Shown piece by piece: positions 61,256 to 63,980 of a stretch of DNA of 64,000 nucleotides; the stretch's first letter is position 1, and each line of letters opens with the position of its first letter. The stretch is from an uncultured Opitutales bacterium. Lineage in GTDB: Bacteria > Verrucomicrobiota > Verrucomicrobiia > Opitutales > Intestinicryptomonadaceae. The notes under the pieces are model-generated. The model had not been told where the DNA came from and did not search any database. It saw only the letters and a program-made list of their open reading frames with translations. The DNA is taken from NCBI GenBank assembly GCA_944389885.1, contig CALXNZ010000002.1:186001-250000 (forward strand), given 5' to 3'. A program made the position numbers and the translations under genes.

Positions 61256-61744
61256 TTAGAATGGGAACATGTGGTCCCAAATACTATCGTTTTTAGCGGG
61301 AGTCCCGGAAGCCTGCGATTCGGACTTATGCTGTTCGACTTTCTGCGGGACAGACGCTTCGGCTTCCTCTGCCGCCTTCGCCGCGGATTCCGCAGAAATC
61401 TCTACGCGGGCCGGGGACGACGCCTGCGATTTATCTTCCGATTTCGGCGCGGACTTTGCCTGAGCCTGAGGAGCCGACGTTTTGCCCATGCTTCTCTGAA
61501 GTTTGCGCAGCTGGCTTTTCAAGGCCCTATTTTCCTCGCGCAGCTTTGATAAGATAGCCATATCGTCTTTTATTTGTTTTACATACTTTGCGTTGGCAGA
61601 CTGCAACTGTACTTCAAGAGAATTTATTTTTTCTTTGAGTTGGACAATCTCTGCCTGCAAATCGGCCGACGACGGTTTAGTATCGGCGGAGAATCCGATT
61701 TGTGTGGAGATAGCGAAAGTTAATAATATGAAAAATTTTCTCAT
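61256..61744 (-). CDS. Small secreted coiled-coil protein of unknown function
   Basis: 162 residues with a signal peptide (MRKFFILLTFAISTQIGFSA). Residues 27-90 form a heptad-rich coiled coil (LQAEIVQLKEKINSLEVQLQ, ILSKLREENRALKSQLRKL), followed by an Ala/Ser/Lys/Glu-rich low-complexity tail and a conserved-looking end DSIWDHMFPF. It would be periplasmic and likely oligomeric. It lies 66 bases upstream of ileS on the same strand. No family is recognised; a YbgF/CpoB-like trimer head without the TPR domain is one possibility. Confidence 0.65.
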   Translation of the reverse strand: MRKFFILLTFAISTQIGFSADTKPSSADLQAEIVQLKEKINSLEVQLQSANAKYVKQIKDDMAILSKLREENRALKSQLRKLQRSMGKTSAPQAQAKSAPKSEDKSQASSPARVEISAESAAKAAEEAEASVPQKVEQHKSESQASGTPAKNDSIWDHMFPF

Positions 61745-61925: not shown

Positions 61926-61962
61926 AAAAAAAAAAGCGGGAGAAGATTTCACCTCCTCCGGC
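61926..61962 (-). terminator. Rho-independent terminator of a lost PEP-CTERM gene
   Basis: On the minus strand GCCGGAGGAG pairs with CTTCTCCCGC (one mismatch, one wobble), seven-base loop, followed by ten T residues. It lies 26 bases past the stop of the PEP-CTERM tail fragment at 61989. Confidence 0.8.
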
Positions 61963-61988
61963 TTTCTTAATAGTGCAAAAGGTATGGG

Positions 61989-62072
61989 CTACCGCTTGGA
62001 TTTTACTCTGAGGCAATAAGCCATTGCCAAAAGTCCAAAAATTCCGGCAAATGCCGCGGGTTCGGGGCTCGC
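61989..62072 (-). pseudogene. Orphan PEP-CTERM tail (C-terminal fragment only)
   Basis: Reading leftward, the frame gives ASPEPAAFAGIFGLLAMAYC, then Leu-Arg-Val-Lys-Ser-Lys-Arg and a TAG at 61989-61991. That is a standard PEP-CTERM tail: Pro-Glu-Pro, hydrophobic helix, basic end. Immediately upstream in frame is a TAG at 62073-62075, and further upstream the sequence belongs to an esterase gene on the opposite strand. The rest of the PEP-CTERM gene is therefore missing at the junction near 62056-62072. Its terminator remains intact. The break is either a deletion/recombination scar or a wrong assembly join. Confidence 0.75.
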
Positions 62073-62718
62073 CTACGAGCTATGCGGTGTTGAAATCGCA
62101 AGGTGGTTCGCGGAAAACGGAATAAGCGCGGCCGTATTGAAATACCGCGTTCCCAACCTGCGCGATGAAGCCCTTATGGATATGCGCAGAGCGGTGCGCT
62201 ATATCCGCGCCAACGCCAGAGAATTGGGCATAGATCCGAATAGGGTAGGCGTAATGGGATTCTCCGCCGGCGCGAATCTTGCCGCGCGGACGAGCTGTCT
62301 CTACGGCGATGAGAACTACCCTCCGCGCGACGGAGTAGATAAAGAATCAGCCCGTCCCGATTTCTCGATAATAATATACCCCGCCTATCTTGACGAACCC
62401 ACATTCCAGAAGTGGTGGGGAAATAAGAAAGACAAGGTATCCACGGATTACAATAGAGACTTCGCATTGGCGCCGGAAATAAAAATCCACAAGGGGATAC
62501 CTCCCACATTCATCATGCAACCGCTCGACGACGCTAATTGGAGCGAATCTTCGATAGCTTATTTTCTGTCCCTGCGCAAGGCCGGCGTCCCGGTAAATTT
62601 GCATATTTACGAAAGCGGCGGACACGGCTTCGGAATTCGCCACAGCGGCTCGGCGTCGGATTCTTGGGAGGACGTTCTGGCCCATTGGCTCAAATTCAAA
62701 AAGATAATGCCCAAGTAA
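62056..62718 (+). pseudogene. Truncated BD-FAE-type alpha/beta hydrolase (N-terminus missing)
   Basis: Homology starts abruptly at about 62056 with GSGLAYELCGVEIARWF, continuing AENGISAAVLKYRVPNL; in intact acetylxylan/feruloyl-esterase-like proteins this region follows a signal peptide and an HGGGY-type oxyanion-hole block, both lost here. The rest is intact: the nucleophile elbow GVMGFSAGANLA, the Asp of FIMQPLDDANWSE and the His of YESGGHGFGIRH. The frame is closed by a TAA at 62017. The first ATG inside is at 62137 and would give a 193-residue product lacking the first strands, unlikely to be active. It meets the opposed PEP-CTERM tail in a tail-to-middle join. Confidence 0.75.
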
Positions 62719-62741
62719 TGCGCCTTTCCGAAAACGCATTA
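62716..62741. terminator. Inverted repeat joining two convergent stop codons
   Basis: TAATGCG (62716-62722) and CGCATTA (62735-62741) pair around a 12-base loop. The outer three bases are the stop codons of the hydrolase fragment (TAA at 62716) and of the convergent MFS gene. T-rich tracts are weak, so it is only a possible bidirectional terminator. Confidence 0.4.
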
Positions 62742-63980
62742 CTTTTGAGCGGCGCGCTTGGATCTGCGCGGATCAGGTATTGTCAGGGCGAATAGGGAAT
62801 TTGCCGCAGCCATCAAGGCCGCAAAAGTAAATAGAAAAGCCACGCCGTAATTCATCCACACCCAACCTCCGAGCGGGGCAACGCATATCGACACCATGTG
62901 GTTTATCGAAATTCCGGAAGAGAGCGAAGCCGTGAGTTCGTCCCTGTTAGCGGCCACGTCTTTTGCGTACATTCCGGTCGCCATTGAAGTCGTGCTTATA
63001 GTGGAGTCGCAGAGAAAATTCAGATACAGAAACGGCACCGCGAGATACGGCGGAAATATGTCTCCGGCGTAGCCGTATCCAAGGCATACAAAAAATAGTA
63101 TCACGGTATCGTAGATCATCACATTGCGGTATCCGAACTTGTCGGCGATTTTTCCGATTAACGGGCCGGCAAAGATGTTTACGGCCGCGCACACTCCGTA
63201 CAGCATGGCGATTTCCCCGGTGGATACGCCGTATTCCATGATTAGGACGTATGGGGCAAAAGTCAGGAAGATTTGCTTTCTTGCCCCGTAGAAGAGTTCA
63301 AGCCCGTAAAATTTTCCGAAACGCCTATTGAAATATAGTCGGGGCCTCTTTGACGCGAAACGCGGGGCGTTTTTTGTGGTCGAGCATATCAAGCTCGCCG
63401 CCAAGAGTACAAAAATCAGGACGAATACGACATCGTAAAGCAGGCGCCTATCCTCGACGCCAAAGAGCCCCGTGCCAGTCCAAAAGATAGCGGCTACTAT
63501 GACACTTCCGGCCACAGTTCCCAAATTCATCGCGCTTGCGAGGAATCCCAGAGAATGGCCTTCCCTGCCCCTCTTTGCCATATGCATTGCTATGGAGCTG
63601 CGAACCGGCATTACGACGTGCTCGCCCGTGCTCCATATCATTATAATTACAGTTGCTATCCTTATGTCGGAGGGGAACAAGAGAAAGGCAATTCCCGCCA
63701 TAGAAACGAGTATGCCCAGGCGCATTATAGACCATTCCGTCGCCCTGCTCAAGAACGCCAGAATGAATACCAACATGAAGCCGGGGAGCTCCCTAAAAAA
63801 TTCTATCCAACCCCTTTGGAATTCATTTGCCGACAGCACTTCAGCCAGAAAGTTGTTTATGGACGCCGCAAAACATCCCACCCCTATGCCCCAAATTACT
63901 ATGCTTAGAAAAAAAGCGCCCGCCCCCGACTGCTCCTTGAAATTTCGCGAAGAAAACCTTTGTTTCAGATAGTGAAGCAT
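62739..63980 (-). CDS. MFS family transporter
   Basis: 413 residues with about 12 membrane spans. The first half opens FFLSIVIWGIGVGCFAASINNFLAEVL, with EFFRELPGFMLVFILAFLSRATEWSIMRLG; a central loop with Lys and Arg near residue 210 separates it from the second half (LFYGARKQIFLTFAPYVLI, AMLYGVCAAVNIFAGPLIGKIADKFGYRNVM). The RDELTASLSSGISINHM segment after helix 10 is unusual and also appears in MFS proteins of this lineage. Substrate cannot be assigned. It converges with the truncated hydrolase and is 20 bases from the window edge; the start at 63980 is the only plausible ATG. Confidence 0.83.
   Translation of the reverse strand: MLHYLKQRFSSRNFKEQSGAGAFFLSIVIWGIGVGCFAASINNFLAEVLSANEFQRGWIEFFRELPGFMLVFILAFLSRATEWSIMRLGILVSMAGIAFLLFPSDIRIATVIIMIWSTGEHVVMPVRSSIAMHMAKRGREGHSLGFLASAMNLGTVAGSVIVAAIFWTGTGLFGVEDRRLLYDVVFVLIFVLLAASLICSTTKNAPRFASKRPRLYFNRRFGKFYGLELFYGARKQIFLTFAPYVLIMEYGVSTGEIAMLYGVCAAVNIFAGPLIGKIADKFGYRNVMIYDTVILFFVCLGYGYAGDIFPPYLAVPFLYLNFLCDSTISTTSMATGMYAKDVAANRDELTASLSSGISINHMVSICVAPLGGWVWMNYGVAFLFTFAALMAAANSLFALTIPDPRRSKRAAQK

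Follow-up and report, generated by a model that had tools for sequence, protein, structure and literature searches.

At a single position in the genome of an uncultured gut bacterium of the Opitutales, the C-terminal tail of a minus-strand PEP-CTERM gene meets a plus-strand esterase gene that has lost its 5' part (Table 1). We regard this scar as probably the product of one illegitimate deletion between divergently oriented PEP-CTERM and esterase genes, which left two pseudogene remnants. The window, i.e., the whole stretch of 64,000 nucleotides analyzed here, lies on contig C2, which is 260064 bp long, and spans its bases 186001-250000; the genome comprises 2.2 Mb in 27 contigs and is 95.9% complete. 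The genus of the source genome was represented by 14 genomes in the comparison set.

Table 1. Features at and around the scar (positions in the window).
Feature	Position	Strand	Basis
Gene X, small coiled-coil protein of the secreted type; intact neighbour upstream of ileS	61256..61744	-	Same X-ileS order within the genus
Hairpin (61959-61939) with T run, terminator behind the stop codon of the PEP-CTERM tail	61927..61959	-	Fold and terminator scan
Orphan PEP-CTERM tail, 25 codons (PEPAAFAGIFGLLAMAYCLRVKSKR) and stop	61989..62066	-	Own-tail profile
Junction interval TTCGGGG, 0-7 bp microhomology; may have been present in both parent genes	62061..62067		Ile in 30/30 tails, Tyr in 18/18 esterases
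5'-truncated alpha/beta-hydrolase esterase remnant, 218 codons and stop; PGGGY loop and N-terminus lost	62062..62718	+	Protein and profile matches
Longest ORF in the remnant that opens with a recognised start codon (TTG), 193 aa; putative	62137..62718	+	ORF list
Inverted repeat AAGTAATGCG/CGCATTACTT, between the convergent esterase remnant and MFS gene	62713..62744		Repeat search
MFS transporter gene, directly behind ribF	62739..63980	-	Protein search

The PEP-CTERM tail was searched for with a profile built from 30 tails read from the source genome, out of 35 matches of a Pfam search. Among the 1953 six-frame segments of the window, the scar tail received an E-value of 5.7e-7, level with four other PEP-CTERM genes of the window, while that of the next segment was 1.4. 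The genome-wide version of the profile (alignment A3) contained 29 rows, one tail with QEP instead of PEP being left out, and yielded 54 matches at E-values up to 10; 50 of them were below 0.1, including the scar tail (E 2.8e-5). The scar tail lies in a frame of 27 aa, versus 177-1338 aa in the other 49 PEP-CTERM matches, and is the only orphan tail among the 50. Its scores against the curated models were marginal, with E-values of 0.06 (Pfam) and 0.028 (NCBIfam), both below the cut-offs, and it was not among the matches of the genome-wide Pfam search, unlike in the search with the own-tail profile.

The minus-strand frame at the scar reads HSS*ASPEPAAFAGIFGLLAMAYCLRVKSKR*, in which the Ala-Ser ahead of the PEP piece reads as esterase DNA. 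Since a TAG is in frame at 62075-62073, the tail is unreadable from upstream. A sequence-only reading of the same DNA had described the last 26 codons of a PEP-CTERM gene with its own terminator. The profile recovered this tail, albeit with 25 codons counted from the first Pro (61992-62066; stop codon at 61989-61991, minus strand), and the terminator held. The hairpin after the stop codon folds with a z-score of -3.5, none of 200 shuffles being as good, and 22 of the 30 source-genome tails are followed within 50 nt by a hairpin predicted at -12 kcal/mol or better. As the terminator scan returned 4 sites against 3.0 expected, the call is based on place and fold instead of count.

The source genome also has the exosortase of a PEP-CTERM system, represented by a match to Exosortase_EpsH (E 2.2e-40) at L079:18488-19492, which is likely the sorting enzyme for its PEP-CTERM proteins. 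The EpsI-like and exosortase genes together occupy L079:17733-19492 on contig C2, outside the window and approximately 10 kb to the right of the scar. In a member of another genus of the family (G015, contig C282; L123:3574-7171), two esterases of the kind described below lie immediately ahead of EpsI and exosortase genes, all on one strand.

On the plus strand, the frame from 62059 matched Abhydrolase_3 with an E-value of 2.5e-17. The remnant retains the Ser of GFSAG (62263-62265) and the His of GHG (62623-62625), which correspond to the GxSxG nucleophile elbow and the catalytic His of such esterases. What is absent is the complete start of the fold with the glycine-rich PGGGY loop, presumably the oxyanion loop. 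In the 18 full-length relatives, PGGGY follows about 75-160 residues, and both this stretch and the motif are missing in the remnant, which is without the first ~86 residues of the full-length esterases; the proposed loss of the N-terminus was thus borne out. The match to the BD-FAE profile starts at position 40 in the remnant versus positions 1, 6, and 7 in the three intact relatives scanned. The nearest protein was a full-length esterase of another genome (G007) at 56% identity. The placement of the remnant in the tree was without support (62/63), and an origin from a G007-type copy is therefore only a lead. The remnant is not an identified PaeX, as its PaeX score of 121.7 bits is to be compared with a cut-off of 550. 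A look for intact versions of both genes elsewhere in the genome had been suggested as a check: two intact esterase paralogs do exist on contig C3 (47% and 45% identity to the remnant), adjoining MBL-fold and ribD genes, a site of the esterase array in many relatives too. No second DNA copy of the scar region or of either half was found in the genome.

The esterase fragment could in principle be a still working gene that starts anew at the TTG at 62137 or a later ATG, a reading to which we give hardly any credence. It accounts for the 218 codons free of stops, for a codon-position G+C resembling that of the neighbours, and for the kept Ser and His motifs. Against these stand the loss of the PGGGY loop, of the initial portion of the fold, and of the signal-peptide-like N-terminus, and a change from E to C along with other losses at invariant columns. 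A plus-strand promoter-like site was also absent just upstream, a weak test, and the promoter scan (3 sites observed, 2.0 expected) carries no weight. The open frame itself is weak evidence for function or for recency, because the chance that a frame stays free of stops after 25 neutral amino-acid changes was approximately 0.33 in a simulation without indels.

Of 39 columns that are invariant in the other 18 esterases, 6 are changed in the remnant (5 of 38 once the junction codon is set aside), while each of the others departs at 0-4 of 39-43; at the 80%-conserved columns, the corresponding figures are 18 of 77 versus 2-12 of 77-82. The end branch of the remnant in the tree is 1.05 in contrast to a median of 0.5. 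Furthermore, unique changes numbered 32-47 in the remnant and 10-19 in G007, being higher in the remnant for all 17 outgroups, with p<0.05 in 16 of these mutually non-independent comparisons. The remnant thus looks relaxed rather than fresh, and the earlier suggestion that each half is well preserved and the event recent is not supported, the esterase piece being fast-evolving and having lost family-invariant residues. The remnant may have been fast-evolving already before the truncation.

The join was bounded by residues that are invariant in each family. All of the 30 tails read from the source genome (out of ~49 tails in long frames in all) have Ile before the PEP position, where the scar has Ser (62069-62067); PEP-CTERM DNA therefore ends at 62066, or at 62067 by a shared base. 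On the other side, the scar has Gly (GGT, 62059-62061) where all of the 18 full-length esterases have Tyr (TAT/TAC), so that esterase DNA starts at 62062, or at 62061 by a shared base. With these two boundaries, which assume zero substitutions at the two boundary codons since the join, the shared stretch is TTCGGGG and at most 7 bp long. The overlap could also be 0, because the esterase columns inside TTCGGGG vary (Ser in 8/18, Gly in 3/18). The break formerly placed near 62056-62072 is real, but the overlap of about 15 bases assigned to it shrinks to 0-7 bp, the rest being unconserved in one or the other family. The same approach can serve to delimit microhomology at other joins for which an ancestral sequence is lacking.

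Within 74 kb of contig C2, the longest direct repeat of the junction region was 11 bp and the longest inverted one was 12 bp. Since no long repeat resides at the junction, neither a homologous nor a site-specific event is suggested. An invertible element (inverton) was considered as well and rejected, as bounding inverted repeats are absent, with that 12-bp match the longest inverted one.

An assembly misjoin between two sites of the same genome, the other half of the original suggestion of a recombination scar or misjoin, appears improbable. In favour of a misjoin, contig C2 ends only 12 kb away from the join, and the junction was seen in no other genome searched (its 37-mer had no match in viral contigs). 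Nevertheless, assemblers normally need overlaps far longer than 7 bp, and a join at 0-7 bp without Ns falls far below the usual assembly overlaps. Both flanks carry genes of the source genome's genus, including ribF, truB, infB, and nusA on the right, with ribF having a single match in the genome. Neither the contig ends nor any other place in the assembly contains the esterase 5' part, and G+C stays at 0.47-0.52 around the join with no jump. The scar half of the suggestion is what these data support.

The two pieces meet 5' side to 5' side. They had been called fused head-on, implying two distant genes, whereas the same product would result if DNA were deleted between two divergent neighbours. 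A single such deletion fits the arrangement, because each gene lost exactly its side facing the other. At the ancestral locus, a minus-strand PEP-CTERM gene would have had on its right a plus-strand gene for a complete secreted esterase, the two being transcribed divergently. A single illegitimate (non-homologous) deletion, its ends joined with 0-7 bp of microhomology within 62061-62067, would have taken the PEP-CTERM gene's 5' part, all the intervening DNA, and the front of the esterase gene from the signal peptide through PGGGY. The leftovers would be the 25-codon tail with its terminator and the 218-codon esterase fragment, each deprived of promoter, start, and export signal, and both presumably dead.

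We searched the assembly for a stray esterase 5' part with a profile of the segment ending in PGGGY, and only the two intact paralogs matched (E 1e-18 and 6e-17). The absence of the 5' part favours a deletion over a balanced inversion, which would leave it elsewhere, although the ~4% of the genome outside the assembly could hold the lost 5' parts. Among 27 esterase loci of relatives, none had a divergent PEP-CTERM/esterase pair as direct neighbours; the text pattern for PEP-CTERM in this check also flagged a few false ends, which were dismissed by eye. At one locus (L085), a plus-strand esterase is separated by two genes and approximately 3.2 kb from a minus-strand PEP-CTERM gene on its left. 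Because the intact ancestral pair is absent from the 27 loci, the deletion is the simplest account of the scar and not a demonstrated one.

The order of genes on both flanks of the scar differs among relatives, and the locus is a place of changing gene order. The X-ileS order was kept in all of the 7 relatives fetched, and the gene content upstream of X differed in all of the 6 relatives whose contigs extend far enough. On the other side, neither an MFS nor an esterase gene was found behind ribF at any of 12 ribF loci of relatives. The search of 17 genomes for the MFS gene found matches only in the source genome and in one genome of another family (31%), and none in the other members of the genus searched; with this distribution, the gene may have been acquired. 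One member of the same genus (G010; one contig, rated 95% complete) had zero candidates for the esterase, MFS, and RibF alike, and its sequence is perhaps misfiled.

The neighbourhood can also be read as the outcome of a larger rearrangement, in which two genes that had not been neighbours were brought together by an inversion, a translocation, or the insertion of a segment carrying the esterase fragment and possibly also the MFS gene. We consider this possible, albeit unlikely. Esterases of this family usually reside in an array by the MBL-fold gene and ribD, as on contig C3 here, instead of near ileS, and both the adjacent MFS gene, for which the remaining genus members searched had no match, and the variable gene order around ileS and ribF are consistent with such a rearrangement. 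On the other hand, a balanced inversion should have left the esterase 5' part elsewhere in the assembly, the junction bears no repeats, and more steps are needed than for one deletion. Thus, we prefer the single deletion between divergent genes.

We find it very doubtful that the scar, with its break at the PEP codons, is one case of a wider process, in which the dozens of PEP-CTERM tails dispersed over the genome, with their P-E-P codons and often a terminator, would provide short anchor sites for illegitimate recombination. Breaks would then favour PEP codons, and genes for surface proteins would be shuffled or lost. The locus shows how one site decayed and is of little importance beyond good bookkeeping: the esterase ORF here is to be annotated as a pseudogene fragment, and the short orphan PEP-CTERM tail is no gene.

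The scar can be compared with three known systems. The PEP-CTERM sorting domain (PF07589, TIGR02595) is defined, in outline, by a near-invariant PEP, a hydrophobic helix after it, and basic residues clustered at the very C-terminus (Haft et al., 2006; PMC1569441). The scar tail likewise has the PEP motif, a hydrophobic stretch, and a basic C-terminal end, but it differs in being a tail of 25 codons only, with Ser in place of the source genome's Ile and an in-frame stop just upstream, attached to neither a protein body nor a signal peptide. Compared with the Abhydrolase_3/BD-FAE carbohydrate esterases (nearest named NCBIfam models PaeX and AxeA1; PDB 6a6o), the remnant shares GFSAG and GHG and is at most 56% identical to full-length relatives of the genus, yet it is without the N-terminal ~86 residues including the PGGGY loop. 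Our literature search returned no paper on such scars in this bacterial group, and the scar is an ordinary pseudogene scar, a piece of ordinary genome decay. Pseudogene pairs that remain after a deletion between adjacent genes at short or no homology are of a known kind. No feature sets the scar apart from them, and it shares with them a sharp join, 0-7 bp in common between the two sides, and the truncation of both genes on their facing sides.
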